Notes under the pieces: model-generated
What the model saw: the letters and a program-made list of their open reading frames with translations, nothing else
Told to the model about the DNA's origin: nothing
The model's database searches: none
Position numbers and translations under genes: made by a program
Assembly (NCBI GenBank): GCA_028279985.1
Contig: JANQMR010000002.1
Location: 1 to 64,000 of the forward strand
Direction of reading: 5' to 3'
Length of the DNA stretch: 64,000 bases
Source: Woeseiaceae bacterium
GTDB lineage: Bacteria > Pseudomonadota > Gammaproteobacteria > Steroidobacterales > Woeseiaceae
Shown here: positions 28,799-54,545 of the stretch, piece by piece
Layout of the letters: every line of letters begins with the position of its first letter
Position numbering within the stretch: the stretch's first letter is position 1

Positions 28799-30913
28799 GT
28801 GAACACAAAGAACTTCTCAGTAGCTGTCCGGCTGGTGTTGATTGTCCTACTTGGGCCTCTGTCGTCAGTGACAGCGCAAGAGGCGCCTGGGAGCAATGGC
28901 TCCGGTGATTATGCGCTGAACGAAATCGTAGTTACAGCAACCAAGCGGGCTCAGAACCTCCAGAACGTACCAACTGCGATCAGTGCGTTTGATTCGGCCT
29001 ACCTGCAAAACAATCGTGTTCAAGAATTTACCGATTTGGCGGCGACCGTGCCTGGACTAATAGCGAATGACGGCTCAGCCGGTGCCGGCGTTATCGCGAT
29101 TCGAGGGATATCCAGTTCCGCGCGAGGCGTGCCCGACATCGAACAACCGGTGGGTGTATTCATCGACGGAGTTACCGCGCCGGGCAGCCTGGATTTCTTG
29201 CTCCACGACATTGAAAGGGTCGAAGTCATCCGCGGCCCGCAGGGCTCGATTTGGGGCCGGAATACGCTCGGAGGGGCGGTGTCTTTTACGACGACTCGCC
29301 CTGGCGATGTGTTGAGCGGATATTTGCAAGTGGGTGCCGGCGATTTCGGTTTCAGGGACTTACGTGCGGCAATCGGCGGCCCGCTAATTGAAGACAAATT
29401 GAATGCCCGAATTGCGCTGGGTCATGATGAGAGGGACGGGTATACGCAGCGTATCTCCGGCGGAACACTGGGCGATATCGACCGCAGCGTCGCCCGGGTC
29501 TCGCTAGACTGGCTTGCGAGCGACGACGTGTCCGTTGCGCTGATTGTCCAGCGTGACGAGAGCGAGTTTTTCAACACGACCGGCGAATACTTCGTGGGCC
29601 CATTGGCGGACTTTGCCGGGACCGATGGGTTCCAGCGTCGAATCGACACCGACTTCCATGAAAAAAGCGACAGCAACTCGACGACATTCACCGGCATCGT
29701 AAGCTGGGATATCGGCGACTACACGTTTACGTCGGTTACGGGTCATAGGATGCTGGACGGGACGACCAATGCCGATTCGGACAGCACGAACTTGCCTATT
29801 GTCGTGGAGATCGTTGGAATCGACACGGAGCAGATCAGCCAGGAGTTCCGCTTGGCAAGAGATGGCGCTCTCGATGGCAGGATCGACTTGATGATCGGTC
29901 TGGATTACCTGAAGCGCGATGATTTCACCCACGCGGACGTCTCCGAGGAGGGGCTTGCAGTCGAACTGTCCTTTGATAATGAGGTGACAAGCCGGGCCGC
30001 GTTCGGTGCGCTGGACTTTCATTTATCGGATAGTTGGGTGCTGAATACCGGATTCAGGGTCGCAAGCGAAGAGAAAGCCAGTACTCAAACCCTGGATGTA
30101 CCAGCCTTCGGTATCGAGCTCGATAGCGGTCCAAGAGATCTGGACGACGATCAATTCTCGTATCTGGTCGGCCTAACTTACAATGCGACGGACGACCTGA
30201 TGCTTTACGCGAATCTTGGTCGTGGTCATAAGAGCGGTGGCTTCAACGACTTGCGTGTCACCGCGGGGCCGTTTGACAACGAGATGGGTGACAGTTACGA
30301 AGCCGGACTGAAGGCAACGTTCTTCGACAACAGAGCCGTATTCAATGCCAGCGCGTTCTTCATCGATTACCAGGACCTGCAGATTCGTGACCTGGATGGG
30401 ATTCGGCCGGTAATAATCAATGCCGGTAAGGCTGAAAACAAAGGTGTCGAGATCGATCTGAGCTTTGCGGCAACCGATGGCCTGGATTTCACGGCGGCCT
30501 TATACTATCTGGATGCCAAGTACGTAGAGTTCATCGAGCCCGGAGGTCAGGACTTCTCCGGCAATCGAACCGCAAACGCACCTGAGTGGAGCGCGAACCT
30601 GAGTGCGAACTACACCCGGGCGTTTGGTAACGACAACGAATTCTTCGCCACTGCGCTGCTGGCCTACAAGGACGATTATTTCGTTGACTTTTCGAACGAT
30701 CCGGACAGCCTTCAGCCGAGCTACACTTTGATCAACGGTCGTGTAGGATTCCGATTCGCGGAAAAATACGAGCTTTCGCTTTGGGGACGCAATCTCTCCG
30801 ACGAAGACTACAGGGTCGACTTCGTGACGATTGGCGCCGTTCCTTCGAAGCAGCACGTGCTCGGGGCGCCTCGGACTTACGGCGCGGAATTCAGGGTTTC
30901 ATTCGGGGATTGA
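28799..30913 (+). CDS. TonB-dependent outer-membrane receptor
   Basis: Outer-membrane active transporter for an unidentified ligand. GTG at 28799 with AAGGGGG eight bases upstream gives 704 aa with a signal peptide ending near SSVTAQ; the open frame from 28688 adds a region with no signal character. A TonB box-like EIVVTATKR follows the signal, then the plug domain (about 50-160; DLAATVPGLIANDGSAGAG, GPQGSIWGRNTLGGAV) and a beta-barrel ending in the usual aromatic C-terminus (EFRVSFGD). First gene of the 13-gene array; its location suggests the island substrate enters here. Confidence 0.9.
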   Translation: MNTKNFSVAVRLVLIVLLGPLSSVTAQEAPGSNGSGDYALNEIVVTATKRAQNLQNVPTAISAFDSAYLQNNRVQEFTDLAATVPGLIANDGSAGAGVIAIRGISSSARGVPDIEQPVGVFIDGVTAPGSLDFLLHDIERVEVIRGPQGSIWGRNTLGGAVSFTTTRPGDVLSGYLQVGAGDFGFRDLRAAIGGPLIEDKLNARIALGHDERDGYTQRISGGTLGDIDRSVARVSLDWLASDDVSVALIVQRDESEFFNTTGEYFVGPLADFAGTDGFQRRIDTDFHEKSDSNSTTFTGIVSWDIGDYTFTSVTGHRMLDGTTNADSDSTNLPIVVEIVGIDTEQISQEFRLARDGALDGRIDLMIGLDYLKRDDFTHADVSEEGLAVELSFDNEVTSRAAFGALDFHLSDSWVLNTGFRVASEEKASTQTLDVPAFGIELDSGPRDLDDDQFSYLVGLTYNATDDLMLYANLGRGHKSGGFNDLRVTAGPFDNEMGDSYEAGLKATFFDNRAVFNASAFFIDYQDLQIRDLDGIRPVIINAGKAENKGVEIDLSFAATDGLDFTAALYYLDAKYVEFIEPGGQDFSGNRTANAPEWSANLSANYTRAFGNDNEFFATALLAYKDDYFVDFSNDPDSLQPSYTLINGRVGFRFAEKYELSLWGRNLSDEDYRVDFVTIGAVPSKQHVLGAPRTYGAEFRVSFGD

Positions 30914-30970
30914 TCAATGAGGCCGGTACCGTTGGACTCGTAACTATGACGAGCTGGGAGTGCACAAAGA

Positions 30971-32080
30971 ATGACAGTGATATGCGCGGAGAGTCACCGG
31001 TCTGACGGCCCTGCTGGTAACGCCACTGGTAGTGACGATAGCGGTGACCAGGCCGGCGCGTGCAGGAGGAGGCTTTCCCGAGCCAGCGGCTTCGCCGCTT
31101 CACAACTGTGGCGGTTTCTGACGGCCTTGCTGGTAACGACGCTGGTAGTGACGGTGGCGGTGACCAAGCCGGCGCGTGCAGGGGACGGCTCTCCCGAGCC
31201 GGCGGCTCAGCCGGTTCAACTGCCGGAACATCTTTCGGGAAAGACTGCCCGCTTGACTATGTCATTCGAGGAACCGTTCGAACGGCAGCCGGATGGCTTC
31301 GACTACGCCCATGAAGTCCGGGTAGCGCTTCCGGCCAGCTATGAGCGCTATCCGGACCGGGCGTACCCTGTCATCTGGGTCATGGACGGCGATCTGATGT
31401 TACACATGGTAGTCGGTGTTCTGAACCTGCTGACGTTTGGCGGGGACGTGCCGGAAATGATCGTCGTATCCGTTGGCAGCCCACCCGAGCTCGGCATTCA
31501 CGGCCACCTCCGGCGCCTTACCAATTTCTCTCCGCCGGGCGATTCCTACTACGGGCCGGGGCTGATTGGGGAACTCCAGAGAGAGATTGTGCAGTTCCCT
31601 GAATTTCCGCACAAAGGCGACAAGTTTCAGGCGTTCTTGGTAGGCAGCTTACGAGACGAATTGTCGGAACGATACAGAATGTCGGAGGAACACACGCTGT
31701 TCGGGCATTCATCGGGAGGAATGTTTGCGGGGTATACGCTATTTACTCGTACGGAAGCATTCTCGAGCTACATTATTGGAAGCCCGTACTTGTACGCTGT
31801 CGACGGCGCCGTGTTCAAGTACGAGAAATCGTACGCAAGTAATCACGACGATCTACCGGTTTCGGTGTTTATAGGTGCAGGCGACAAGGAAATTTCCGAT
31901 AGCGAACACATTGCGACCGGCGGCCTGGTCAGCTCGATGGCCTTGTTGTCCGAGCGGGTCAGGCTGAGGCGTTACCCGTCATTGCAATGGACGTCGAGAA
32001 TCTACTCGGGCGAAGACCACGGCACCGTCGTGCCCCGGCTCTTGATGGAAGCGATCCCCAAGCTGTCCGCGGCAGACTAA
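30971..32080 (+). CDS. Exported esterase-D/IroE-type alpha/beta hydrolase with duplicated leader
   Basis: Serine hydrolase of the esterase-D fold family that includes siderophore esterases. The nucleophile elbow is FGHSSGGMFAGY, with the catalytic His probably in GEDHGTVVP. The oxyanion segment YPVIWVMDGDLMLH is typical. The signal peptide (RFLTALLVTTLVVTVAVTKPARAG) begins only at about residue 43; the preceding residues from ATG 30971 are encoded by an out-of-frame copy of the same DNA, a 116-bp imperfect tandem duplication. Whether this N-terminus allows export is unclear. Possible role: hydrolysing an ester or thioester form of the imported substrate in the periplasm. Confidence 0.78.
   Translation: MTVICAESHRSDGPAGNATGSDDSGDQAGACRRRLSRASGFAASQLWRFLTALLVTTLVVTVAVTKPARAGDGSPEPAAQPVQLPEHLSGKTARLTMSFEEPFERQPDGFDYAHEVRVALPASYERYPDRAYPVIWVMDGDLMLHMVVGVLNLLTFGGDVPEMIVVSVGSPPELGIHGHLRRLTNFSPPGDSYYGPGLIGELQREIVQFPEFPHKGDKFQAFLVGSLRDELSERYRMSEEHTLFGHSSGGMFAGYTLFTRTEAFSSYIIGSPYLYAVDGAVFKYEKSYASNHDDLPVSVFIGAGDKEISDSEHIATGGLVSSMALLSERVRLRRYPSLQWTSRIYSGEDHGTVVPRLLMEAIPKLSAAD
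31002..31208. repeat. 116-bp-period imperfect tandem duplication in the esterase 5' end
   Basis: Segment 31002-31092 and segment 31118-31208 match at roughly 80 of 91 positions. Both encode the same signal peptide, the first in another frame that ends in TGA at 31119 and has no start codon. The 116-bp period is not a multiple of three. Confidence 0.85.
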
Positions 32081-32102
32081 GAAAATCGATACGGGATTCT
32101 AA

Positions 32103-33197
32103 GTGTCGGTGCTGGAAAAGCTGCGAATCTATCTGGTGCCGGGGCTTGTACTTCAGTCCGTCGTCATTGGAGGAGGCTATGCAACGGGCCGTGAGTTAGT
32201 CGAGTTTTTTCTCGACGACGGCCCGCTCGGCGGCGTGCTCGGAATCGCCGTGGCGGGCCTCGTTTACGCTGCGGCAGCGGCTATCGCATTCGAGCTCGCC
32301 CGGGTTACGCGATCCTATGACTATCGTCGATTCTGCAAACAGCTTCTTGGCCGGGGGTGGTTCCTGTTCGAAATCGCCTACCTTACGTTACTGCTGCTCG
32401 TTCTTTCGGTTGTCGGCTCCGCGGCGGGCGAGATGGCTTCGAGCATCTTCGGCATTCCATCCGTTTTGGGGTCGAGCGTGTTTGTCGTGCTGATCGGCGT
32501 ACTGACGTTCTTCGGCTCTGATGCCATCGCGAAGGTCCTGGCAAGCTGGTCGGCCGTGCTCTACGTCACCTACTTCTTGCTGATCGCGGCGGCCTTTGTC
32601 CTCCTCGGCGACGATATCGTCGCATCGTTTCAACGCAGCGAGCTCGGCTCGGACTGGTGGCAAAGCGGCATCACCTACGCCGGGTATAATCTCGCGGTAC
32701 TGCCGGCCATCCTTTTCTCGGCTTCCAGATTATCGAGCCGGAAGGAGACGCTGACTTCGGGGTTCATCGCCGGTACGCTGGTTGTCATACCGGCCATTCT
32801 CTTCTATGTCGCCCTGATGGGCCTCTATCCGGCAATCGGCGACGCCGCGGTGCCCGCTTCATCCTTGATGTCGGCACTGCAGCTCGGGTGGCTGTCTGTA
32901 ATCTTTTATGTAGTCGTCTACGGAACGCTTGTGGAGACAGGGGCCGGCCTGCTTCATGCAGTCAATGAACGCATAAGTTCCAGCTATGCTGAACGGAAGA
33001 AGGCGTTGCCCCGGTATGCACGGCCGCTGATCGCGTTATCGATACTGGCGGTATCGCTCTACGGAGCATCCAGCATCGGAATTGTCGATCTGATTGCGAA
33101 TGGATACAGCGCGCTAACCAAGGTGTTTTTGGTCATATTCGCGTTACCGCTGTTTACGGTTGGTATTTGGAAGATCTGTGTTGCAAGGAATTCGTAA
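32103..33197 (+). CDS. YkvI-like (LeuT-fold related) membrane permease
   Basis: Polytopic membrane protein, 364 aa with about ten hydrophobic segments. The N-terminal VVIGGGYATGRELVEFF is the hallmark of the uncharacterised YkvI/COG3949 group, related to amino-acid/sodium symporters. GTG start at 32103, 22 nt after the esterase. Its presence between an exported esterase and a TRAP transporter suggests a second import or export route for the operon substrate, perhaps an amino acid. No substrate is established for the family. Confidence 0.72.
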   Translation: MSVLEKLRIYLVPGLVLQSVVIGGGYATGRELVEFFLDDGPLGGVLGIAVAGLVYAAAAAIAFELARVTRSYDYRRFCKQLLGRGWFLFEIAYLTLLLLVLSVVGSAAGEMASSIFGIPSVLGSSVFVVLIGVLTFFGSDAIAKVLASWSAVLYVTYFLLIAAAFVLLGDDIVASFQRSELGSDWWQSGITYAGYNLAVLPAILFSASRLSSRKETLTSGFIAGTLVVIPAILFYVALMGLYPAIGDAAVPASSLMSALQLGWLSVIFYVVVYGTLVETGAGLLHAVNERISSSYAERKKALPRYARPLIALSILAVSLYGASSIGIVDLIANGYSALTKVFLVIFALPLFTVGIWKICVARNS

Positions 33198-33231
33198 CTG
33201 TTTGACCGGCAGGCTCTCGCGACCGTGCAGA

Positions 33232-34263
33232 GTGCCGGTACGGACGTTGTCTCGGCGTGCGGCCTTGTTCGTGATGGCCACGGCGCTCACTTGTGCGGCG
33301 CCGGCCGTTCGGGCGGATACTGAAGAGGTGATCATTGCGCAGGCAGGGCCGCTCTATCCGATGTTCGGCGAAGGCTATGGGGTTACGAAGTACATCGAAG
33401 CGATTACGGGATTGTTTGCGATCCACCCGGCGTTTCGAGATCAAGTCGAGCTGAAGGTTTTCGACAAGGGGATACTCTACGCGACACAGGAAGCGAACAT
33501 CGAGGCGGTTTCGATTGGGGCCATCCAGCTAAGCTACTGTGCGCCGCATATGCTCGAGTCATACGAGCCCGCTTTCAAGGTCGCAAGCGCTCCGGGCTTG
33601 TTCGACGACTTCGCGCATTTCGAGAGGGCAATGCAAACGACGGTCTGGAGGGACGTTCACGCTCGTCTGGCGGAAAAATCCGGGCTGAGAATCCTCAAGT
33701 GGCTCTTCAACGCCGGGGAGCTCTACCTGTTCAGCACGGTTCCGATAAACGAGATCGACGACCTGAGGGGGCGTAAGATCCGGCATCCGGGTGGAGACGG
33801 CTGGGCTCTCGCCATAGAGGGTCTCGGCGCACATCCTATTGCGATTCCTTACACGGAAGTCGTTACGTCGCTGCAGACCAATTTGATATCCGGCCTGATT
33901 ACCGATTTCGCGGGCGGTGCGGATTACTTCGACCTGGCCAAGCTGGCGCCACATACGGTCATCGTACCGGTGACCATTCAGCCGATCTGTTTTGTCGCGA
34001 ATACAAGTTGGTGGGAGTCGCTGAGTTCTGTCCAACGATCTGCGATTGAGGAGACTTTCGAGACGCTGAATGCTTCTGTCTTTTACGACAATCTGACCAG
34101 AAACAAGATTGCCGAATGGCAAAACGACGCCGATCTCAATGTCGTCTATCCAGACAATGCGGCACATTGGCAGGAGACGATGCGGACAGGTGTCCGTAGC
34201 TTACTTGCAGAAGTAGACTCGAGTCTCGTGCAGGCGATTCTCGATAGCCGAGGCCGGGATTGA
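33232..34263 (+). CDS. TRAP transporter substrate-binding protein (DctP-type)
   Basis: Periplasmic binding protein that delivers a substrate, usually a carboxylate, to the TRAP membrane subunits. GTG at 33232 starts an export signal with a twin-arginine-like TLSRRAALF followed by a hydrophobic stretch ending APAVRA; TTG codons at 33160 and 33202 are other possible starts. The fold shows the conserved DDLRGRKIRHPGG region, with the Arg that pairs with ligand carboxylates, and PYTEVVTSLQTNLISGLI. About 343 aa. Next come the Q and M subunits, 7 and 6 nt apart. Confidence 0.87.
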   Translation: MPVRTLSRRAALFVMATALTCAAPAVRADTEEVIIAQAGPLYPMFGEGYGVTKYIEAITGLFAIHPAFRDQVELKVFDKGILYATQEANIEAVSIGAIQLSYCAPHMLESYEPAFKVASAPGLFDDFAHFERAMQTTVWRDVHARLAEKSGLRILKWLFNAGELYLFSTVPINEIDDLRGRKIRHPGGDGWALAIEGLGAHPIAIPYTEVVTSLQTNLISGLITDFAGGADYFDLAKLAPHTVIVPVTIQPICFVANTSWWESLSSVQRSAIEETFETLNASVFYDNLTRNKIAEWQNDADLNVVYPDNAAHWQETMRTGVRSLLAEVDSSLVQAILDSRGRD

Positions 34264-34270
34264 TCGTCCG

Positions 34271-34753
34271 GTGAACGAGTTCGGACGTAAAGTAATGCTT
34301 CTCTGCGGTGGTCTGATACTGCTGAGTGCGCTGATCGGCTTCGCCAGTATCGTGCTCAGGTTGGCGGCTCAGATATCCTCCGATCTGACCACCGACCTTA
34401 TGGTTTGGATAACGGTATGGGGAGCGCTACTGGCCGGCGGCCCGCTCGCAATGACAATCGGTGCTCACATAAGCATTCGGACTGTCGTTGAAAAACTACG
34501 GGGCCGAGCCGGTCGATATGTGCTGGTTGGCGGCCATATCGTCAGCATCGGTATTTGTGCATTGATGGCGTATGCGGGTTGGCTGTATGTCGCCAGCTTG
34601 TACGAGCGGGACGTGACGTTTATTCGCGACCTGGACGTGCCGCATTGGGTAGTGAAGCTATCGGTACCCGTATCGATGACGCTGGTCACGGCATTTTGCT
34701 TGGCCGCACTTCGCGCGGCACTGCGGGGCGACGACTCGGAGAGTAGCGAGTAG
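34271..34753 (+). CDS. TRAP transporter small membrane subunit (DctQ-type)
   Basis: Four-helix small permease subunit of a tripartite sodium-dependent importer; 160 aa with hydrophobic segments near 8-32, 45-65, 83-108 and 125-150. The DLMVWITVWGALLAGGPLAM segment fits the DctQ family's GA-A-GG consensus. GTG start at 34271, with 6 nt to the large subunit. Acts with the adjacent DctP- and DctM-type proteins. Confidence 0.88.
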   Translation: MNEFGRKVMLLCGGLILLSALIGFASIVLRLAAQISSDLTTDLMVWITVWGALLAGGPLAMTIGAHISIRTVVEKLRGRAGRYVLVGGHIVSIGICALMAYAGWLYVASLYERDVTFIRDLDVPHWVVKLSVPVSMTLVTAFCLAALRAALRGDDSESSE

Positions 34754-34759
34754 CCGGCC

Positions 34760-36043
34760 ATGGAACTCGTCGGCTGGGTAGGCGTGGTCTTGCTTCTGGT
34801 CCTGGTGCTAGGCGGCGTGCCGCTCGCGTTTTCGTTCATTGCGGCAGCACTCGTCATCGGTATGTTCGCGATGAACCTGCCCTTGACGGCGATCGGCCAC
34901 CTCACTTTCGAGTCGGTCAACTCCTATCCGCTCTTAGCGGCACCGTTTTTCGTCTTGGCCGGCAACTTGCTCGTACAGGGCGGTGCACTGGACGTCCTGC
35001 GCGGGCTGTTACGGGCGCTGGTCGGGAATACTACGGGCGGGCTGCCCATTGCCGCTATCTTTCTGAGCGCCGTCCTGGGCGCCATATCCGGTTCGGCCGC
35101 CGCATGCCTTGCCATTCTGGCAGCGCTCATGATTCCGATATTCACGAGCATGAATTACGAGCGTCGATTTACGGCCGGACTCTTGGTTACGTCCGCCGAG
35201 CTCGGGCTGATCGTCCCGCCGAGTATTTTTCTCATTCTGTTCGGTGCGTTCAATCGGGTTTCGATCATCGAGCTGTTCGCTGCCGGAATGGCGGCGGGCT
35301 TGCTGATCGCGATACTGATGGCGATCACGGCGGTGCTGATTTCGCGAAAGCGCGGCTATTCGAAGATGCCGGTATTGAAATCCGGTGAACGCAGAAAGGC
35401 GATACAGGAAGCCTTTCCTTTGATCGGGTTCCCCGTGCTGGTTCTAGGCGGCATATACGGCGGCCTTTTTTCGCCGACGGAGTCCGCCTCGGTCGCGGTG
35501 TTCTATTCATTGGTTCTTGGCACGGCTGTTTACCGAAAGCTGACGTGGCCGGGGTTTGCAGAAGCGCTCGTCAAGACGGCGAAGACGACGGGAATCATCT
35601 ACTTTCTCGTTGTCGGCGCCGATCTGCTAGCGCGGACAGTGGGCTACCTGGAGGTCCATACGCTGATTACCAACCTGATTAGCGACCTCGACCTGAGTGC
35701 GCTCGGCTTCCTGTTGGTTGTCAATACGCTGCTGCTCGTCGTCGGCCTGTTTTTCTCCTCACTACCAATGGTCATCGTCATCTTGCCCCTATTCCTTCCG
35801 GCAGCCGTGGCCTTGGGAATAGATCCGGTTCTTTACGGCGTTCTAGGCGTCATTTGTGCATCGATCGGCGAAATAACGCCGCCTTTTGGTCCCCAACTGT
35901 GGTTGGCGCAGCCCCTTTGCGGTGTCCGCATGGGAGAAATTCTAAGAGAAGCCTCCGGGTTTCTACTGGCCTGGTTGGTGGCCGTGGTACTGATTACGCT
36001 ATTCCCGGCAATTATCCTGTTTCCTGTCGAGTTGTTGCGATGA
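34760..36043 (+). CDS. TRAP transporter large permease subunit (DctM-type)
   Basis: Large membrane subunit that carries the sodium-coupled transport path. The 427 aa have about twelve hydrophobic segments. Family signatures are LAAPFFVLAGNLLVQGG, GAISGSAAACLAILAALMIP and the C-terminal GEITPPFGPQLWLA. The stop codon overlaps the start of the CoA-ligase gene (ATGA at 36040-36043), so uptake and activation of the substrate are translationally coupled. Confidence 0.92.
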   Translation: MELVGWVGVVLLLVLVLGGVPLAFSFIAAALVIGMFAMNLPLTAIGHLTFESVNSYPLLAAPFFVLAGNLLVQGGALDVLRGLLRALVGNTTGGLPIAAIFLSAVLGAISGSAAACLAILAALMIPIFTSMNYERRFTAGLLVTSAELGLIVPPSIFLILFGAFNRVSIIELFAAGMAAGLLIAILMAITAVLISRKRGYSKMPVLKSGERRKAIQEAFPLIGFPVLVLGGIYGGLFSPTESASVAVFYSLVLGTAVYRKLTWPGFAEALVKTAKTTGIIYFLVVGADLLARTVGYLEVHTLITNLISDLDLSALGFLLVVNTLLLVVGLFFSSLPMVIVILPLFLPAAVALGIDPVLYGVLGVICASIGEITPPFGPQLWLAQPLCGVRMGEILREASGFLLAWLVAVVLITLFPAIILFPVELLR

Positions 36044-37653
36044 GCGAAACGCCGGGACCGGACATTGTGCGTGCCGGCAGTCTCGATAGCCGACTTTCGA
36101 CCGGTTGTTCGATGGGACACCTGCTCGTACGCGCTATTGCGGCGGGAGGCGACGAGATCGCAATCCGCGATTCGCAACGCCAGGTCAGTTATAGCGCGTT
36201 TGGCGAGGCCCTGTCGAAGCTGATTCAGGCCCTGAAGGCCCGTGGATTCCGTAAGGGCGATCCGGTCGGGATTCTGTCTACGAATCGTATCGAGGCGTTC
36301 CAGGTGACCTGTGCGGCGTTCATCATAGGCCTTAGGGTAACCTCGTTACATCCGATGGCCAGCGCCAGGGACCAGGCGTTCATCCTGCGCGATGCCGGCA
36401 TCGATACCGTGTTCTTCGATCCTCGACAGATGAAGTCGCGGGCGCTCGAACTTCGTGACAGGGTAGGGATTCGCACGCTCTTCTCGCTCGGGCCATGTGA
36501 GGATCTTACTGATGTGCTGTCGGAGGCGGAGGCATTTGATAGCCAGCCGCTCGTCCCGGAAGCGGACGCAGGGGACATTTCAAGTATTTCCTACACCGGC
36601 GGAACGTCCGGTGCGCCGAAGGGCGTCGTCCACACGCATCGGACGCGCGTGACGATGACAATGACGATGCTGGCGGACTGGGAATGGCCTGCCGTTCCTC
36701 GACTGCTCGTCACGACGCCCATCTCTCATGCGTCCGGTGCGATGATCCCGCCGGTATTGATGCGAGCGGGAACGGTTGTCTTGGCAGAGAAATTTCAGCC
36801 GATGGCGTTCTGCGACCTGATTGCCAGGCACCGGATTACATCGACGTTTCTCGTGCCGACCATGATCTACAAGTTGCTGGATCTCGACCGGGCTCAAGTC
36901 GACAAGCTGTCGAGTCTCGAAGTGGTGTACTACGGTGCGGCAGCGGCATGCCCGGTACGAATGGGCAGGGCACGACAACTGTTCGGTCCGATTTTCATGC
37001 AAATGTATGGTCAAACGGAGGCGCCGAACTGCATAACCGCATTGTTGCGCCGGGATCACAGTCCAGAACGCAGTACATCCTGCGGACGGCCGATCGGTTC
37101 GAGTCAAGTCGCGATTTTGGACGAACGGGGCCATCAGGTGCCGGATGGGGAGGTCGGTGAGATATGCGTTCGCGGTCCGCTGTTGATGAGGGGATACTGG
37201 AACAAGAAAGACGAGACCGACGCCGTTTTCCGGAATGGGTGGCTGCACACCGGCGACCTGGCCTGTCAAGACTCGAGCGGCTTCATGTACATCGTAGGTC
37301 GCGACAAGGATTTGATCATCTCCGGCGGCTTCAACGTCTATCCGCGAGAAGTCGAGGATGCGCTCATGGACCACCCGTCGGTTGCGTCGGCGGCCGTATT
37401 CGGCGTGGAAGATGCTACATGGGGCGAGGCCGTTTGTGCCGTCGTCGTGCTCAAGGACAAAAACACCGGCGCCGCGGAGTTGCAGCAGCATGTCCGGGAA
37501 CAGAAGGGCGCTATTCAAGCGCCGAAGAGCGTGTTCTTCGTAGACAGCATTCCTACGACGGCATTGGGAAAGCCGGACAAAGCCATGCTTCAACGAGAGT
37601 ACACGAACAGCACGAAAAAGAGTTCCGCTACCCGCGGCAACCGACGACTGTAG
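36040..37653 (+). CDS. AMP-dependent acyl-CoA synthetase/ligase
   Basis: Activates a carboxylic acid to its CoA thioester through an acyl-AMP. Start ATG at 36040 (537 aa); the longer open frame lies inside dctM. ANL-superfamily motifs are intact: P-loop SYTGGTSGAPKGVVHTH, YGQTEAPN (A5), GDLACQD (A7), GRDKDLIISGGFNVYPREVE (A8) and the C-terminal catalytic Lys in TTALGKPDKAML. Substrate specificity is not evident. Next to a thiolase and a GSA-like aminotransferase it could activate a 3-oxo or branched acid made from the imported compound. Confidence 0.9.
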   Translation: MSETPGPDIVRAGSLDSRLSTGCSMGHLLVRAIAAGGDEIAIRDSQRQVSYSAFGEALSKLIQALKARGFRKGDPVGILSTNRIEAFQVTCAAFIIGLRVTSLHPMASARDQAFILRDAGIDTVFFDPRQMKSRALELRDRVGIRTLFSLGPCEDLTDVLSEAEAFDSQPLVPEADAGDISSISYTGGTSGAPKGVVHTHRTRVTMTMTMLADWEWPAVPRLLVTTPISHASGAMIPPVLMRAGTVVLAEKFQPMAFCDLIARHRITSTFLVPTMIYKLLDLDRAQVDKLSSLEVVYYGAAAACPVRMGRARQLFGPIFMQMYGQTEAPNCITALLRRDHSPERSTSCGRPIGSSQVAILDERGHQVPDGEVGEICVRGPLLMRGYWNKKDETDAVFRNGWLHTGDLACQDSSGFMYIVGRDKDLIISGGFNVYPREVEDALMDHPSVASAAVFGVEDATWGEAVCAVVVLKDKNTGAAELQQHVREQKGAIQAPKSVFFVDSIPTTALGKPDKAMLQREYTNSTKKSSATRGNRRL

Positions 37654-37675
37654 AGCAAAAGAGGAATAAAAAAGC

Positions 37676-38851
37676 ATGAAAGTCTACGTGGCTGGAGTCG
37701 ATATGCAGCCGTTCACGAAGCCGGGACAACAGCGGCCCTATCGAGAGATGGGGGCCGACGCGATCCGGGGCGCCCTGAAGGATGCAGCGATCGATGCGAA
37801 GCTCGTACAGCAGGCGTATGCCGGCTACATATATGGCAGCACAGGCTGCGGACAGCACGTGGTCTACGATGTTCTTCAAACCGGCATCCCCGTATTCAAT
37901 GTCAACAACGCCTGCTGCTCCGGCTCGACCGCGATCATGCTCGCACGCCAGGCCATCTTGTCGGGCCAGGTAGACTGTGCGCTTGCCGTGGGGTTCGAGG
38001 AAATGCAGCGGGGATCGCTTCCGGTACTGTGGCAAGACCGTGAAGGTGTATCGCAACGGATCAACGATTTGCTCGACGATCTGGAAGCCGAGTCCGCCCC
38101 GAACGCGGTTCGGTGGTTCGGATCGGCGGGCGCACAGTATCTGAATAAGTACGATGCCGATCCCGGTCTTTTTTCCAAGATCGCCGTCAAGACCCGCAAT
38201 CACGCATCCGCCAACCCAAACGCAATTTTCCGCACGCCGCTGAGCGAAGAGGAAGTACTCGCAGCGCCCAAGGTATACGGCGACTACCTGACGCGTCTCA
38301 TGTGTTGTCCGCCATCCTGCGGAGCGGCGGCAGCGGTGTTGGTCAGCGACCGTTTCGCACGTCGTCACGGCGTTTCACAGCCAGTGGAAATCGTGAGTCA
38401 GACAATGGCTACCGACACTGAATCCTCATGGGAGGATCCATTGCACGCAGTCGGCTGTGAGATGGTTCGATCGGCTGCGGAACGAGTCTTCGAAGACGCG
38501 GCCATTGGGCCCGACGACGTTGATGTGATCGAGCTCCACGACTGTTTCACACCCAATGAAGCAATCAGCTACGAAGCCCTCGGTTTGTGTCCGCCGGGAG
38601 GCGCGACACAGTTGGTGGCCGACGGGGACAACACGTATGGCGGCAAATGGGTGGTAAACCCCTCGGGTGGACTGATGTCGAAGGGGCACCCCATCGGCGC
38701 GACGGGGCTCGCTCAGTGTGCGGAGCTCGTGTGGCAATTGCGAGGCCAGGCCGGCACTCGAAATGTCCCCGCGGCAAGGGTAGGGCTGCAACACAACATC
38801 GGACTCGTCGCAGGAGTCGTCATGACATTGTATCGGAACGATAAAGCATGA
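37676..38851 (+). CDS. SCP-x-like thiolase
   Basis: Thiolase-fold protein of the sterol-carrier/lipid-transfer group, which cleaves 3-oxoacyl-CoA with CoA (or runs reverse condensation). The 391 aa show the N-terminal VNNACCSGSTA with nucleophilic Cys near 80, ELHDCFTPNEAISYEALGL with the catalytic His, and the terminal GHPIGATG. The final catalytic Cys of biosynthetic thiolases is replaced by His in LQHNIGL, as in SCP-x-type enzymes. The stop overlaps the next aminotransferase gene by 4 nt. Actual cleavage activity is inferred. Confidence 0.88.
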   Translation: MKVYVAGVDMQPFTKPGQQRPYREMGADAIRGALKDAAIDAKLVQQAYAGYIYGSTGCGQHVVYDVLQTGIPVFNVNNACCSGSTAIMLARQAILSGQVDCALAVGFEEMQRGSLPVLWQDREGVSQRINDLLDDLEAESAPNAVRWFGSAGAQYLNKYDADPGLFSKIAVKTRNHASANPNAIFRTPLSEEEVLAAPKVYGDYLTRLMCCPPSCGAAAAVLVSDRFARRHGVSQPVEIVSQTMATDTESSWEDPLHAVGCEMVRSAAERVFEDAAIGPDDVDVIELHDCFTPNEAISYEALGLCPPGGATQLVADGDNTYGGKWVVNPSGGLMSKGHPIGATGLAQCAELVWQLRGQAGTRNVPAARVGLQHNIGLVAGVVMTLYRNDKA

Positions 38852-40203
38852 TTCCCCAGAAGGGAAAAATCAGTCGGTACCAACTTGATCGCTATGCTTC
38901 CGGCGACTCCGTATCTTCTCGCCTGTTCGAAGAGGCGCGATCGCTCATTCCCGGCGGTACGTCACGTCAGTTTTACACCTTCCAACCGAATCCCATATTC
39001 GCCAAAGCGGGCGACGGCTGCTGGGTCACGGATGTCGACGGCGATCGTCGAATAGACTGTTTGAACAACATGTCGGCGCTCGTTCACGGTCATGCGTTTC
39101 CGGACGTAGTCGCTGCAATTCACGATCGTGTTGCAAAAGGCTTCTGCTTCTCCGAACCCTGCGAGACGGAGTTGGAGCTGGCGAAGATGCTGGTGGAACG
39201 CGTGCCGTCTGTCGATAAGGTCCATTTTCGAAGCTCGGGTACCGAGGCTGTCATGATGGCTGCCAAGTTGTGCCGGGCATTCACCGGCCGCAACAAAGTG
39301 GCCAAGTTCGAAGGCAGCTATCACGGCTACTACGACCATGTGCAGATGAGCGTCGCACCCTCTCCAAAGCATTGGGGTAGCGCTCACGCACCGAGCGCTG
39401 TTCCCAGTTCCGCGGGTCTTTCAAGCAATGTAGCGGACGAGGTAGTCGTTCTGCCAAACAACGACCCGGAGTCGATCGAGCGCATCCTCGAATCGCATGG
39501 CAGTCAGCTCGCCATGTTGCTCGTTGAGCCGCTAGCCAACAGGTCGGGAATGTCCAAGCCCGCGCCGGGCTTCTATCGGTTCCTAAGAGAGATCACCAGT
39601 CAGTACGGCATCCTGCTGGTGTTCGATGAAATTATCACATTCAGGTTGGGGGTCGCCGGCGCGCAGGGCAGGTTTGACGGTAGTCCCGACCTGACGACAT
39701 TCGGCAAGGTCATCGGCGGCGGGCTGCCGATAGGCGCGCTTGGGGGGCGCCGCGACGTAATGGACTTGCTGGACCCGACAACGACAAGAGACTACGTCGT
39801 ATCCGGCGGGACCTATAGTGGAAATCCCCTATCGATCGCTGCCGGCATCGCGACGCTCAACAGGCTGACGCAAACAGAGTTCGATTTACTCGACGAGTTG
39901 GGTACCTCATTGCGTAGCGGCGTGAATGACATTCTGAAGCAGGACGGGTTGGGCGCGCAGGTGACAGGCGAGGGATCGCTTTTTCAAATCATACCTGGAA
40001 CGCAGGCCGTCTCGAGTTACAGAGACGTCCCGACCGGCGAGAGGGCGGACGAGTTGATGAGGCAGCTTCATACCGGCTTATTACAAAACGGCGTTATCGT
40101 CGCACGCCGGGGCTTCGGCTGTCTCTCGACCGCCATGGATCTCGAAGTCATTGACGAGGTTCTGTCGGCTTTCGAGAGGGCCGTGGCCGCAGTTCGTCTG
40201 TAA
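38848..40203 (+). CDS. Class III PLP aminotransferase, glutamate-1-semialdehyde-aminomutase-like
   Basis: PLP enzyme of the HemL-like branch that also contains beta-amino-acid aminotransferases. 451 aa; LIPGGTSRQFYTF, SSGTEAVMMAAKLCRAFTGR, YHGYYDH, LLVFDEIITFRLG and the PLP Lys287 in TTFGKVIGGGLPIGALGG are all intact. A housekeeping hemL role is unlikely because it sits inside a catabolic array, between a thiolase and an AtzG-like/amidase pair. An aminotransferase making a 3-oxo acid from a beta-amino acid would fit the CoA ligase and thiolase next to it; an aminomutase role is equally possible from sequence. Confidence 0.86.
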   Translation: MIPQKGKISRYQLDRYASGDSVSSRLFEEARSLIPGGTSRQFYTFQPNPIFAKAGDGCWVTDVDGDRRIDCLNNMSALVHGHAFPDVVAAIHDRVAKGFCFSEPCETELELAKMLVERVPSVDKVHFRSSGTEAVMMAAKLCRAFTGRNKVAKFEGSYHGYYDHVQMSVAPSPKHWGSAHAPSAVPSSAGLSSNVADEVVVLPNNDPESIERILESHGSQLAMLLVEPLANRSGMSKPAPGFYRFLREITSQYGILLVFDEIITFRLGVAGAQGRFDGSPDLTTFGKVIGGGLPIGALGGRRDVMDLLDPTTTRDYVVSGGTYSGNPLSIAAGIATLNRLTQTEFDLLDELGTSLRSGVNDILKQDGLGAQVTGEGSLFQIIPGTQAVSSYRDVPTGERADELMRQLHTGLLQNGVIVARRGFGCLSTAMDLEVIDEVLSAFERAVAAVRL

Positions 40204-40245
40204 ATCTTGGCGACAGACCCAACGAGCAGGACTTGAGAGGTGTAC

Positions 40246-40449
40246 ATGGACGATAAACGAATCAGTACGAGCACGGTTTCGGGCGTGGCATCCGAGTACG
40301 CCGGGAATCCCGTCGACAAGAAACGCGCACGCGAACTTTGCGAGTCGCTGGACGGCTTGCAGCGAGAGATCGCGAGCTTGCGCGAACTCGACCTGGAGCC
40401 CTTTGAGCCCGGGACCGTGTTTCGTCCGGTCAGGGGTGACGATGCATGA
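40246..40449 (+). CDS. AtzG/GatC-like small amidase-partner protein
   Basis: 67-aa helical protein; ATG at 40246 with GAGAGG five bases upstream is preferred over GTG at 40240. The middle is a Leu/Glu/Arg-rich amphipathic helix (KKRARELCESLDGLQREIASL) followed by an extended ELDLEPFEPGTVFRPV tail, as in GatC and AtzG, which wrap around amidase partners. It overlaps the amidase start by 4 nt, the same gene order as atzG-atzE. Assignment rests on size, pattern and position rather than strong similarity. Confidence 0.62.
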   Translation: MDDKRISTSTVSGVASEYAGNPVDKKRARELCESLDGLQREIASLRELDLEPFEPGTVFRPVRGDDA

Positions 40450-41906
40450 CGGAACCCTGGGAACTCGATTTGGCGACGATGTCGGAGGCGGTTGCGTCTC
40501 GCCGGTTGCTGCCGACCGAAATCCTGGCGTCGTTTCTTCAGCGAATCGAGGCGTTCGACGACACTTTTAGGGCCTTTATCACCGTCACCAAGGAAGCGGC
40601 GCAGAAATCTGCGGCGAGAGCCGATGCGACGGTGAATAGGAGCCAGTCCCATGGCCCCTTATTCGGTCTGCCGATCGGACACAAAGACGTGCTTTGCACG
40701 ACGGGTACGCGAACTACGGCGGGTTCGATGCGACTTAAGGATTGGATTCCGGATCGGGATGCGACGGCTGTTGCCCGACTGGCTCAGGCCGGGATGATCA
40801 GCCTTGGAAAACTCAACACGCACGAGTTTGCGTATGGCTCAACGAACAAGGTGTCATTGCACGGTGCGACTCGAAACCCATGGGACACCAGCCGAACGAC
40901 GGGAGGGTCTAGCGGTGGTTCTGCAGCCGCGGTTGCAGCAGGCCTGCTTCCTGCTGCGACGGGCACCGATACCGGAGGCTCAGTTCGAGCGCCGTCCGCC
41001 TGTTGCGGACTGACGGGCCTGAAACCCACCTACGGCCGAATCAGCCGATACGGCGCCGTGCCGCTGAGTTGGAGTCTCGATCACGTAGGGATCGTTGCGC
41101 GGACCGTGTTCGACGCTTCAATGCTTTTGGAAGCACTGGCCGGACATGACCTGCTTGATCCCGCGTCGGCAAACCTACCGGTACCACCCTACGTAGAGAG
41201 TCTGTCCGGCGGAATCGAGGGCGTGAGAATCGGTGTGCCCAGAAGAATGTTCTTCAGTCAGGCACAAGACGAGGTCGTGGACACGGTCGATTCCGCCATT
41301 GGCATGTTGCGAAATCTGGGAGCGAGGACCGTCGAGGTCGAGATTCCCGATATCGAGAAGTATCGGGCAGCGAGCCTGGCCATAGTCCTTGCCGAGGCGG
41401 CAGACTACCACGCCGACGAACTCAGGACAGAGAGCCATCTCTACTCGGACGAGGTTCGCGAATACATCGAGCTGGGCGATCATGTTCTGGCAAAGGACTA
41501 CGTCCGCGCTCAGCGCTATCGGCAAATGCTCGGCGAGAGTATGCGGGCGGTCTTGAACGATGCGGACTACCTAGTAATGCCCACCGTTCCGATTTTGGCG
41601 CCGCTACTCGACGAAGACTCGTGCCGGATCGGCGGAAAAACAGAGTCTGTCGACACGGCATTGCTTCGCAATACAGAGCCGTTCAATCTGACAGGGTTGC
41701 CGGCGTTGGCACTACCTTGCGGGTTCGCGCACGGGCTTCCCGTAAGCATGCAGATCGTCGGACGCCCGTTTGACGAGGCCGGCGTACTTCGGCTCGGCCA
41801 CGCCTACCAGATGTCGACGGACTGGCACGCCGCAAGACCCGACTTATCCAACCTGATCTCGGCCGGGACAAAGCCGTTTGCCGCAAGTATGAGGACACCA
41901 TCGTGA
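40446..41906 (+). CDS. Amidase signature family hydrolase (AtzE/GatA-like)
   Basis: Hydrolyses an amide bond by the Ser-cisSer-Lys triad: Lys80 (GLPIGHKDV), the cis-Ser of TGGSSGGSA (about 155) and the nucleophile Ser179 (GTDTGGSVRAPS). 486 aa, no signal peptide, so cytoplasmic. GLTGLKPTYGRISRYGAVPLSWSLDHVG matches the AtzE/GatA branch. Coupled by 4-nt overlaps to the AtzG-like gene before and the beta-lactamase after. A true GatA is unlikely, since no gatB is near. Substrate could be an N-acyl amino acid, a ring-opened imide or a carboxy-biuret-like compound. Confidence 0.9.
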   Translation: MTEPWELDLATMSEAVASRRLLPTEILASFLQRIEAFDDTFRAFITVTKEAAQKSAARADATVNRSQSHGPLFGLPIGHKDVLCTTGTRTTAGSMRLKDWIPDRDATAVARLAQAGMISLGKLNTHEFAYGSTNKVSLHGATRNPWDTSRTTGGSSGGSAAAVAAGLLPAATGTDTGGSVRAPSACCGLTGLKPTYGRISRYGAVPLSWSLDHVGIVARTVFDASMLLEALAGHDLLDPASANLPVPPYVESLSGGIEGVRIGVPRRMFFSQAQDEVVDTVDSAIGMLRNLGARTVEVEIPDIEKYRAASLAIVLAEAADYHADELRTESHLYSDEVREYIELGDHVLAKDYVRAQRYRQMLGESMRAVLNDADYLVMPTVPILAPLLDEDSCRIGGKTESVDTALLRNTEPFNLTGLPALALPCGFAHGLPVSMQIVGRPFDEAGVLRLGHAYQMSTDWHAARPDLSNLISAGTKPFAASMRTPS

Positions 41907-42958
41907 ATCTGAAACCCGATCCAAGAGACCCAAATATCTTCCCGGGCGCGACTTTGCTCGCGTGCCTGTTTTTGCTTGCCACGGCATCGGCGCACGCCGA
42001 GCTGCGGCACATTGGAAGTGAGCAAACCCTCAGCGCACTGAAGTCGGAGCTGCTTCGATTCGGCGAGCTGTCGGAAGGCGTGATGGGGGTATCTCTGATC
42101 CACCTGGAAACTCGTACTCGGCTGAATATGCGTGGCGAGGAGCAATTCCCGATGGCCAGTACCTACAAGATTCCCACGGCCGTCACCTTGTTACACCAGG
42201 TCGACGATGGGCAGCGTGCACTTGCGGAGTTGGTCGAGGTCAGGCAAGCGGACCTGGTGCCGTCGCAGGGGGTCAGCGCGCATTTCCGGCACCCGGGCAT
42301 CAAGCTGTCGCTGCACAATCTCCTGGAGCCGATGCTGATCGTTAGCGACAACACGGCCACCGATGTGCTGATGCGTGAAGTCGGCGGTTCGGCGACAATC
42401 AATCGAACGCTGGATCGACTGGGTGTCACCGGCATTCGGGTCGACCGAAACACGAACATGCTGATCCGCGATTATCTCGGCATGGATGCACCCGCGGCGG
42501 GCGAGCCCCGCTCGTTTCTGGAAGACTACGAAGCGATGTCTGCGGAGGAGAGGGCCGGCCTGGAAACGTATCGTTCCAATACTTTTGCCGACGACCCACG
42601 GGACACTGCAACGCCGAATGGCATGGCGGAGCTGCTCGAGGCCATCTGGACCAACGACATTCTTTCGGAGCAAAGCAGCGAGATCATCCGTGACATCATG
42701 CTGCGCTGCGAAACCGGTCAGGATCGCCTGACGGGAATTCTCCCCGCGGGCACACCGGTTGCACACAAGACCGGAACGATCGGCGGTACCAGTAACGACG
42801 TAGGCGTCATAGAGCTCCCGCACGGCAAGGGCCACCTCGTCATTGCCGTCTTCATCAAGAAGTCTGAGACAGACGACTACGGTATTCGTGACAGGGCGAT
42901 AGCTGAGGCCGCGCGGTCAGCCTACGACTATTTTGTATTCAACGTGGTGAGCCTATGA
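41903..42958 (+). CDS. Class A beta-lactamase-family serine hydrolase with enlarged loop
   Basis: Periplasmic penicillin-binding-fold hydrolase. GTG start overlaps the amidase stop by 4 nt. Signal peptide 1-32 (ATASAHA). Class A motifs: Ser86-x-x-Lys89 (STYK), SDN 148-150, DPRDTATP 231-238, and KTGT 289-292. The SDN to KTG distance is about 141 residues where about 100 is usual, because about 35 residues are added in the omega-loop region (180-230); no clear E-x-x-x-N is visible, though Glu201 is a candidate for the deacylation Glu. At 351 aa it is longer than resistance enzymes (about 290). Its place in a catabolic operon suggests a nutrient-processing lactamase or esterase. Confidence 0.85.
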   Translation: MNLKPDPRDPNIFPGATLLACLFLLATASAHAELRHIGSEQTLSALKSELLRFGELSEGVMGVSLIHLETRTRLNMRGEEQFPMASTYKIPTAVTLLHQVDDGQRALAELVEVRQADLVPSQGVSAHFRHPGIKLSLHNLLEPMLIVSDNTATDVLMREVGGSATINRTLDRLGVTGIRVDRNTNMLIRDYLGMDAPAAGEPRSFLEDYEAMSAEERAGLETYRSNTFADDPRDTATPNGMAELLEAIWTNDILSEQSSEIIRDIMLRCETGQDRLTGILPAGTPVAHKTGTIGGTSNDVGVIELPHGKGHLVIAVFIKKSETDDYGIRDRAIAEAARSAYDYFVFNVVSL

Positions 42959-44601
42959 AGAAGAGTAGCCTGACATCGGAATCGATAGAGTCTGATAAAG
43001 AGAAAGCGGGCCGGAGAACGTCGCTCTCGGCGCTTTCGGCTGTCTTGATCGCGCTGGCTGTATTTTCGGTTGAGCCGGCGGAGGGTCAATCCGAACGGCC
43101 GCACGCAGATTCATACGACATAGTCATTCTAAACGGCCGGGTCATCGATCCCGAGACAGCATTGGATGCGATAAGAAATGTTGGGCTGCGCGGAGACCAA
43201 ATTGCCGTAGTCACGACGGAATCGATACAGGGACGCTCGACCATCGATGCAACGGGCTTGGTCGTTGCCCCCGGCTTTATCGATATGCACGCACATGGCC
43301 AACAGATCCTGCCGGCCCGTGTCCAAGCGCTCGACGGTGTCACGACCGCGCTCGATCTGGAGGCGGGAACGTTGCCAGTGGCGAAGTTCTATGCAAATGC
43401 AGCCCGGGACGGGCGCCCGATAAACTATGGAGTGTCTGCGGGTTGGGGTCACGCACGAATTGCGGAACTCACCGGTAACGAGCCGGCAGCCGAACCCGGA
43501 TTCTTTACTTCCCATTTCGGCGACTGGTCGTGGCAGCTCAAGATTGCGTCCGCGGCTGAGCTCGACGCCATTCTGCGGCGGGTACAGCAGGGCCTGGATG
43601 AGGGTGGCCTGGGCGTTGGAATACTCCTGGGCTATGCACCGGGGGCAGGGCGCAAGGAGTACCACGCCCTACACGAGCTCGCGGCCAGGAACGGCGTGCC
43701 GACTTTTACGCATGCGCGATACTTGTCGACGATTGAACCGGAAAGCTCGTTCGAGGCGTATCAGGAGATGATCGCGGTTGCGGCTTCAACGCAAGCTCAG
43801 ATGCATGTGTGTCACCTGAACAGCATAAGCCTAAGGGATATCGGCGATATAGCGTCGATGATCAGGCGCGCACAGTCGAGCGGCCTTAGGATTTCCGTCG
43901 AGGCTTACCCGTATGGCGCCGGATCCACGGGTATCGGTGCGGCGATGTTCAGAGGACCGAACTGGCAAGACCGATTGGGGGGACTGAAGAAATCCGACTT
44001 CATGCTCGGCGGCACTCCGCTGTCGGATCGGGAATTCGACCGACTCCAGACAGAGGCGCCCAGTACTTCGATTGTCGTGCATATGCTGCGTCCGGACGAC
44101 AACGATGAGGATCGCGAGATGCTCGACCAGTCGATTCTGTTTCCGGGTGGGGTGATTGCATCCGATGCGGTCGATTGGTCGGACGAGACCGGAAAGGCCA
44201 TCCCGCAGCACACGTGGCCCTTGCCCGAGAATGCGATGTCTCATCCAAGAAGCGCCGGAACCTTTGCCCGCTTTCTCAGGATCTGGGTGAATGAACGAGA
44301 AAAAATTTCTTTACTCGACGCGATCGCGAAGTTGAGCCTGTACCCGGCGCAAATACTGGGAGAGTCGATACCGCAGATGAATGCGAAGGGTCGCCTGCAG
44401 CCCGGCGCAGATGCCGATATCGTGGTTTTCGACCTGGATACCGTCAGCGACAAGGCCACTTTCGGACGTCCCGCTCAAACGTCTGTCGGATTCGAATACG
44501 TCTTGGTGGCGGGCGAACGACTCGTGTCGGACGGAGTGCTGAACACAGAGATTCTCCCCGGTAGGGAAATCCGGAGAAATACCTCAGGCCGCGATAACTG
44601 A
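42955..44601 (+). CDS. Exported N-acyl-D-amino-acid deacylase/D-aminoacylase-type amidohydrolase
   Basis: Metal-dependent amidohydrolase that cleaves N-acyl-D-amino acids or related amides. The 548 aa begin with a basic region and a hydrophobic signal (about 22-44), so the enzyme should be periplasmic or membrane anchored. Features are the short beta-sandwich segment YDIVILNGRVIDPETALDA, first metal motif His112/His114 (GFIDMHAHG), a second His in FTHARYLS, MHVCHLNS, and the terminal GRLQPGADADIVVFD. Last gene of the plus-strand array, coupled to the beta-lactamase by ATGA. The exact substrate may be a D-amino-acid amide instead. Confidence 0.83.
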   Translation: MKKSSLTSESIESDKEKAGRRTSLSALSAVLIALAVFSVEPAEGQSERPHADSYDIVILNGRVIDPETALDAIRNVGLRGDQIAVVTTESIQGRSTIDATGLVVAPGFIDMHAHGQQILPARVQALDGVTTALDLEAGTLPVAKFYANAARDGRPINYGVSAGWGHARIAELTGNEPAAEPGFFTSHFGDWSWQLKIASAAELDAILRRVQQGLDEGGLGVGILLGYAPGAGRKEYHALHELAARNGVPTFTHARYLSTIEPESSFEAYQEMIAVAASTQAQMHVCHLNSISLRDIGDIASMIRRAQSSGLRISVEAYPYGAGSTGIGAAMFRGPNWQDRLGGLKKSDFMLGGTPLSDREFDRLQTEAPSTSIVVHMLRPDDNDEDREMLDQSILFPGGVIASDAVDWSDETGKAIPQHTWPLPENAMSHPRSAGTFARFLRIWVNEREKISLLDAIAKLSLYPAQILGESIPQMNAKGRLQPGADADIVVFDLDTVSDKATFGRPAQTSVGFEYVLVAGERLVSDGVLNTEILPGREIRRNTSGRDN

Positions 44602-46050: not shown

Positions 46051-46136
46051 TATCAGTCCAGCCTCTTGCCCATGTAGGTGCGTCCCTTGACGGTGTCGTT
46101 CCGGCCGCCGCTATTCTGTTCCCTCCACCCGCCAGC

Positions 46137-46157: not shown

Positions 46158-46176
46158 TTCCGGCGTGTAACGCGCG

Positions 46177-54533: not shown

Positions 54534-54545
54534 GAGGAGCCGGCT

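Follow-up and report, generated by a model that had tools for sequence, protein, structure and literature searches.

A dgcN pathway of D-glutamate catabolism has been described, and Woeseiales are named among the carriers of dgcN (PMC12363236). The breakdown of beta-valine runs via a coenzyme A (CoA)-dependent ammonia lyase (PMC4619459), and Kat, a HemL-like acyl-CoA beta-transaminase of lysine fermentation (3-aminobutyryl-CoA aminotransferase), is co-located with a thiolase (PMC3149608). The omega-transaminase StoTA of Sphaerobacter thermophilus accepts a gamma-amino acid too (PMC10589169). Wild-type LRA-5, a protein with the class A fold, has biologically insignificant activity, which has been attributed to the absence of Glu166 and of the deacylation water (PMC12777564). 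Here we analyzed a DNA stretch of 64,000 nucleotides (the window; positions 1 to 64,000 of contig JANQMR010000002.1, assembly GCA_028279985.1) from a Woeseiaceae bacterium whose genome comprises 4.1 Mb in 40 contigs. The window contains a run of 13 genes that we read, with a probability of about 0.5, as a single catabolic operon in which uptake and cleavage of D-glutamate-type peptides or N-acyl-D-amino acids are combined with conversion of a beta-amino acid to a 3-oxoacyl-CoA and its thiolysis.

The 13 open reading frames (ORFs) occupy positions 28799 to 44601 of the plus strand in the order that had been predicted from the sequence, all of them open and all on one strand. The 12 junctions measure, in operon order, 57, 22, 73, 7, 6, –4, 22, –4, 42, –4, –4, and –4 bases, the sixth being computed from a ligase start set to the ATG at 36040, which was checked. 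The array had been called mostly overlapping; the spacing is indeed tight, with a largest gap of 73 bases, but overlaps of 4 bases are present at only 5 of the 12 junctions, so that the term was slightly overstated. Given these five overlaps and the recurrence of parts of the array in other genomes, the arrangement exceeds chance. Family searches agreed with the names originally given to the TonB receptor, esterase, TRAP transporter, CoA ligase, SCP-x thiolase, class III aminotransferase, amidase, and deacylase. Directly upstream, outside the interval covered by the original prediction, marR, dgcN, and dgcA run divergently on the minus strand (25872–28435), with 363 bases separating marR from the TonB receptor gene. 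The presence of these genes next door changes the interpretation of the operon.

The best PDB match for the aminotransferase was StoTA (6K8H), with a score of 371.2 bits, compared with 280 for ForI and no more than 269 for HemL structures. In the alignment, Arg40, Asn74, Lys287, and Thr322 correspond to R36, N70, K282, and T317 of StoTA, respectively, the pattern of a StoTA-type enzyme. D-Phenylglycine aminotransferase falls within the wider family. Assignment of the protein as HemL was rejected, given that its score for the equivalog TIGR00713 was 353.1 against a cut-off of 527.3 and that a HemL candidate on contig C13 of the same genome scored 600.5 bits, above the HemL cut-offs. The best other match in overlapping sets of 99, 396, and 369 genomes, each including this one, showed 44% identity (the searches of 396 and 369 scored no more than the four top candidates of each genome), and the best match on plasmids showed 45.3%. 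A scan of a genome collection with the aminotransferase alone yielded 48 stretches and no relative.

We examined the neighborhoods of 25 relatives with 37–45% identity, derived from 14 of 16 places outside the source genome (two on one contig) and from 11 of 182 plasmid records; individual loci are designated by L numbers. In 10 of the 25, a 3-oxo-acid-consuming or CoA-ester-forming enzyme was encoded nearby. Subunits A and B of 3-oxoacid CoA-transferase were found in 6 of the 14 non-plasmid neighborhoods, directly upstream of the aminotransferase gene in L045, L046, L047, L048, and L050 (family-tested for L047 only) and two genes away in L052, which also contains a thiolase gene recognized by eye. 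A CoA ligase gene lies near the relative in L044, and a short ORF in L056 is annotated as BKACE. In L232 (Sphingobium) the relative lies beside a BKACE-family enzyme by annotation and a CoA ligase (NCBIfam score of 121.9 against a cut-off of 382), and L234 has a CoA-transferase beta subunit by annotation, with no NCBIfam match at 1e-20. The closeness to StoTA, these 3-oxoacid and CoA enzymes near the relatives, and the location of HemL elsewhere in the genome make it plausible that a beta-amino-acid-type aminotransferase feeds the CoA ligase and thiolase. Kat (PMC3149608) provides a direct precedent for such an arrangement.

The ligase most resembled FadD8 among solved structures (8ivi, 479.9 bits), and its score for the NCBIfam FadD8 model was under the cut-off (544.9 versus 875). 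The thiolase exceeded the cut-off for PRK08256 (576.9 bits versus 436), as expected of an SCP2/SCP-x enzyme, and its best PDB match was SCP2-thiolase type-1 (6hsj, 414.4 bits); three plasmid relatives lie within clusters for fatty-acid or terpene degradation. Among the genes identified by family in the low-GC island that surrounds the operon, none was found to encode a beta-oxidation dehydrogenase (acyl-CoA or 3-hydroxyacyl-CoA) or a hydratase; in this island a second TonB receptor and a nitroreductase-like ORF were named by eye. A ligase together with a degradative thiolase would therefore be best explained by direct formation of a 3-oxo acid or 3-oxoacyl-CoA, for example by the aminotransferase. 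The amidase matched GatA best in the PDB, with biuret hydrolase also among the matches. An AtzE/AtzG pair was not recognized, since the amidase scored under the AtzE cut-offs (352.7 versus 461 and 340.7 versus 425.75) and the adjoining 67-residue protein had no match in NCBIfam and only chance-level matches in Pfam and the PDB.

The divergent genes point to D-glutamate. DgcA scored above the cut-off of its equivalog (404.8 versus 400), and DgcN matched its model (NF041892) over the full length. Of 196 genomes sampled from the order, 49, counting the source genome, had a dgcN match at E values up to 1e-50. The neighborhoods of the 40 best of 63 copies in other genomes, in stretches of 3–20 kb, were searched with proteins of the window and of its relatives. 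The search recovered dgcA from 34 of them, YkvI-like permeases from 9, D-aminoacylases from 8, and M19 dipeptidases from 5; the aminotransferase gave one match (L201, 33% identity, 172 bits). The deacylase of the operon scored 681.6 bits for PRK09061 against a cut-off of 340, and its closest solved structure was N-acyl-D-glutamate deacylase (3gip), with D-aminoacylases next. From the dgcN neighborhoods and the closeness to 3gip, the deacylase and the YkvI-like permease (for which NCBIfam gave no match and Pfam none over its cut-off) are provisionally placed with D-glutamate salvage.

The protein encoded between the amidase and the deacylase, for which export was predicted by eye, had been labeled a class A beta-lactamase. 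In support of this label, it matched PF13354, passed the NCBIfam cut-off for class A (217.7 versus 200), and contains the class A motifs S70-x-x-K73, S130-D-N, and K234-T-G. We aligned 86 sequences (85 distinct, with L083 duplicating the member from genome G240) consisting of the window protein, five further members, and the best 80 loci of a contig scan with the six-member alignment. The G240 gene, from a genome of the same family as the source genome, is identical over its last 300 residues to that of JAOUIH010000191.1, a contig from a metagenome-assembled genome (MAG) of a Gammaproteobacteria bacterium. Ser86, Lys89, Ser148, Asp149, Asn150, Lys289, and Gly291 are retained in all 86 sequences and Thr290 in 85. 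The label fails at Glu166 of the omega loop: across residues 179–235, including insert columns, no column contains Glu in more than 26 of the 86. This enlarged loop instead retains Arg182 (82 of 86), Thr184 (76), and Asp231 (84), and only D181, G193, D231, R233, and D234 are invariant there in the six-member alignment. The best Foldseek match for an AlphaFold model of the protein (pLDDT of 90.2) was LRA-5 (E value of 1.6e-24).

Relatives of the class A-like protein are rare close to the source organism, with one or more in 3 of the 245 other genomes searched from the order and in 2 of the 248 searched from the phylum; plasmids gave no match at 1e-30, and the best 80 scan loci are largely from MAGs of Acidobacteriota and Gemmatimonadota. 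In a Sphingomonas MAG (L131), the gene directly follows a TonB receptor gene and dgcN, with the ORFs overlapping by 13 bases. A Steroidobacter MAG (L144) has the order dgcA, M19 dipeptidase, TonB receptor, dgcN, lactamase-like gene, S15 peptidase, YkvI-like permease, and POT peptide transporter, with dgcA (367.8 bits) and dgcN (443.9 bits) both under their cut-offs of 400 and 480. In L143 the gene comes after those for a TonB receptor and a YkvI-like permease. A D-aminoacylase-type gene adjoins it in L065, L066, L081, and L145, and the encoded proteins of L066 and L145 scored above the PRK09061 cut-off and that of L065 below it (224.7); L065 additionally carries NlpC/P60 and N-acetylmuramoyl-alanine amidase genes. 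Given the missing omega-loop Glu, the LRA-5 fold, and this gene company, the window protein is probably not a beta-lactam ring opener; a role as D-peptidase, amidase, or esterase is more likely. The family is thus a widespread class A-like group without the deacylating glutamate that keeps company with D-amino-acid genes in several genomes. Since the window member passes the class A cut-off, resistome surveys may miscount such proteins, and matches of this kind should not be scored as resistance genes without testing. As a separate observation, one strand of L145 (Shewanella subflava, 648–9136) encodes a lactamase-like protein, a D-aminoacylase, a class C-like serine hydrolase, an amidohydrolase (by eye), and an M81 (MlrC-family) peptidase.

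The course that follows is inferred from gene order, protein families, recurrence of modules, and active-site patterns; this applies to each reaction, to whether ligation or transamination comes first, to the substrate, and to the idea that both halves act on one compound. The operon is probably controlled together with the divergent marR-dgcN-dgcA genes. Small peptides or N-acyl-amino acids would be taken up by the TonB receptor, and the exported esterase, class A-like hydrolase (as a D-amidase, peptidase, or esterase), and deacylase would release free D-amino acids, chiefly of the D-glutamate type, as well as carboxylic amides. The YkvI-like permease and TRAP transporter would import the products, of which D-glutamate would be processed via DgcN and DgcA. 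The amidase and its small partner would release a beta-amino acid; this compound, or the CoA ester that the ligase would make of it, would be converted by the StoTA-like aminotransferase to the 3-oxo level, and the SCP2-type thiolase would cleave the 3-oxoacyl-CoA into acetyl- or propionyl-CoA and a shorter acyl-CoA. The operon layout is the one basis for assigning both halves to a single substrate. The original interpretation was in this respect half right, in that its arm of transamination, CoA ligation, and thiolysis is plausible and has gained support, whereas its lactam arm is not supported.

Several observations weigh against a single operon of this function. Parts of the gene set recur in other genomes, as had been suggested for checking, but no second locus with both halves was seen among the neighborhoods searched. 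The 14 aminotransferase neighborhoods (254 kb) contained no dgcN, YkvI-like permease, deacylase, lactamase-like protein, or thiolase of the window type, with matches limited to dgcA in L044, the ligase in L043 and L044, and DctM in L046; the ligase, thiolase, TRAP transporter, amidase, and lactamase-like protein were found in none of the 40 dgcN neighborhoods. For 15 of the 25 aminotransferase relatives no 3-oxoacid or CoA enzyme is nearby, and 7 of the 25 are adjoined by a thiamine pyrophosphate (TPP)-dependent enzyme (recognized by family test in one case, by annotation in four, and by eye in two). The DgcN score lies just below its cut-off, ordinary class A lactamases follow LRA-5 in the fold search from an E value of 1.0e-22, and 73 of the 80 best loci of the lactamase-like family (14 of the 80 being shorter than 10 kb) showed no match to dgcN, dgcA, the YkvI-like permease, or the deacylase.

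It is possible, at clearly lower odds, that the operon is a composite in which the genes for salvage of D-glutamate and N-acyl-D-amino acids and those for the ligase, thiolase, and aminotransferase act on separate substrates and were brought together by rearrangement within a low-GC island. The lack of a second locus with both halves among the neighborhoods searched would fit such an origin, as would the composition of the region. The GC content at third codon positions is 0.60–0.73 for genes between 25.9 and 56.6 kb, compared with 0.75–0.80 in the five flank genes measured, and the region therefore looks acquired. Against a composite, the halves are knitted together by the five 4-base overlaps, and the amidase, lactamase-like, and deacylase genes overlap end to end.

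It is unlikely that the substrate of the aminotransferase is an amine other than a beta-amino acid, such as a gamma- or omega-amino acid, and that the ligase and thiolase serve a fatty or branched acid freed by the esterase. The acceptance of a gamma-amino acid by StoTA (PMC10589169), the TPP-dependent enzymes beside relatives, and the membership of D-phenylglycine aminotransferase in the wider family are consistent with this view. So is L225, from a genome of the same genus, in which the amidase, thiolase, and ligase genes stand in a row without an aminotransferase; runs lacking the aminotransferase had been named at the outset as telling against its part in the route, and this one does so in part. 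An ordinary acid, however, would not reach the 3-oxo level with the island genes alone, given that no beta-oxidation dehydrogenase or hydratase is among those identified.

A more specific version of the favored reading, which we consider improbable, is that the operon degrades peptides in which D-glutamate-type residues occur alongside a beta-amino acid, for example nonribosomal lipopeptides or cyanopeptides, with D-residues passing through DgcN and DgcA and the beta-amino acid through transamination, CoA ligation, and SCP2-type thiolysis. SCP2-type thiolysis would suit alpha-methyl-branched beta-amino acids. According to a 2020 review, the enzyme that degrades Adda, the beta-amino acid of microcystin, was still undetermined (PMC7232508), and the three-gene cassette would therefore be a candidate type to look for. 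Genes for M81 (MlrC-family) proteins, far below the MlrC cut-off, lie near aminotransferase relatives in L040 and L052 and near the lactamase-like relative in L145. An Mlr system was not recognized here: the sole PF07364 match in the genome is on contig C23 and none is in the window, with MlrA and MlrB not having been searched for. Least probable of all is the route originally proposed, with periplasmic opening of a beta-lactam by the class A-like protein followed by transamination and thiolysis of the resulting beta-amino acid, for which the Ser-Lys, SDN, and KTG motifs, the class A score, and the closeness of true class A lactamases in fold speak, and against which stand the scarcity of Glu in the omega loop, the insignificant activity of LRA-5 (PMC12777564), and partners that, where seen, are D-glutamate or peptide genes (dgcN, dgcA, M19 dipeptidase, POT transporter, D-aminoacylase).

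Two further gene arrangements were observed around the aminotransferase relatives. In L045, L046, L047, L048, and L050, from the window's order, a KamA-family gene, the genes for 3-oxoacid CoA-transferase A and B, and that for the StoTA-like aminotransferase form a recurrent cluster, followed by a gene similar to that for L-piperidine-6-carboxylate dehydrogenase in L047 (above cut-off) and L046 (by eye). This cluster could represent a beta-amino-acid pathway of the beta-lysine or beta-glutamate type. A KamA-family protein is encoded in 6 of the 14 non-plasmid neighborhoods; its identity as lysine 2,3-aminomutase was not secured, with L045, L047, and L051 far below each of the curated cut-offs compared. 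In L039/L040 (contig C59 of genome G038), L052, L233, and L236–L238, the aminotransferase gene is followed by one for an acetolactate-synthase-like TPP enzyme. On rhizobial plasmids a short-chain dehydrogenase/reductase gene joins these two, and L238 has an annotated dgcN about 5 kb away.

The low-GC region includes a second block downstream of the operon (Table 1), which may be part of the same catabolic island since HyuAB genes also stand beside the aminotransferase relatives of L054 and L235; its own HyuA and HyuB are CapAB-like and under cut-offs. With regard to synteny in 60 other genomes of the genus, one flank gene had two weak matches and the other none. Rfam and tRNA scans of the window gave nothing, and a promoter scan gave 4 promoter-like sites compared with 6.8 in shuffles, so that the site at 28585–28614 upstream of the operon carries no weight as evidence.

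Table 1 Features of the window in and around the 13-gene operon
Feature	Position	Strand	Basis
dgcA, N-acetyl-D-glutamate racemase, enolase superfamily	25872..26852	-	NF042940, 404.8 bits
dgcN, N-acetyltransferase (DUF1611)	26864..27937	-	NF041892, 461.9 bits (cut-off 480); Pfam DUF1611
MarR-family regulator	27944..28435	-	PF12802/PF01047
TonB-dependent receptor	28799..30913	+	PF00593, PF07715
Esterase-like hydrolase, export predicted by eye	30971..32080	+	PF00756
YkvI-like permease (name from the original prediction)	32103..33197	+	By eye; homologues near dgcN and lactamase-like genes
TRAP transporter DctP	33271..34263	+	PF03480, NF037995
TRAP transporter DctQ	34271..34753	+	PF04290
TRAP transporter DctM	34760..36043	+	PF06808
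Acyl-CoA ligase, FadD8-like	36040..37653	+	PF00501; PDB 8ivi
SCP2/SCP-x-type thiolase	37676..38851	+	PRK08256; PDB 6hsj
Class III aminotransferase, StoTA-like (beta/gamma-amino acid)	38848..40203	+	PDB 6K8H match, active-site residues
Small GatC/AtzG-like putative amidase partner, 67 residues	40246..40449	+	Position, by eye
Amidase-signature hydrolase, GatA/AtzE type	40446..41906	+	PF01425
Class A-like serine hydrolase, extended omega loop	41903..42958	+	PF13354 (Beta-lactamase2); alignment, fold model
N-acyl-D-amino-acid deacylase, export predicted by eye	42955..44601	+	PRK09061; PDB 3gip
Flavin adenine dinucleotide (FAD) amine oxidoreductase	within 44743..56593	-	
Second TonB receptor	within 44743..56593	-	By eye
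MFS transporter; HyuA/HyuB; Asp/Glu/hydantoin racemase; class I aminotransferase	within 44743..56593		
Nitroreductase-like ORF	within 44743..56593		By eye
TonB-like, ExbB-like, and large TonB receptor genes, after the island	within 57075..63655	-	By eye
FecR-like gene	62456..63655		By eye

The prediction that no described system has this exact composition holds for the sets searched, and none was seen among the open-licence papers listed. Among the papers listed for the combination of beta-amino acid, transaminase, 3-oxoacyl-CoA, and thiolase, only that on Kat looked relevant. The operon provides genes with which beta-amino-acid breakdown via 3-oxoacyl-CoA can be tested, and it ties this breakdown to D-glutamate recycling. 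With DgcN-DgcA catabolism of D-glutamate it shares the adjacent dgcN and dgcA genes and a DgcA above the curated cut-off, and it differs in that these genes diverge from an operon of TonB, YkvI, TRAP, and hydrolase genes with a MarR regulator gene between. The class A-like protein resembles LRA-5 (8EO5) in having the class A fold without Glu166, whereas the omega loop of its family is longer and some members belong to D-amino-acid operons. Beta-valine degradation, as described in the source cited above, is likewise a CoA-dependent breakdown of a beta-amino acid but uses a lyase rather than a transaminase and thiolase. Kat, likened here by its description, resembles the present arrangement in that a HemL-like aminotransferase stands beside a thiolase and converts a beta-amino thioester to a 3-oxoacyl thioester; Kat, however, serves lysine fermentation, whereas the best-matching solved structure for the window enzyme is that of StoTA, with which it shares the four active-site residues.

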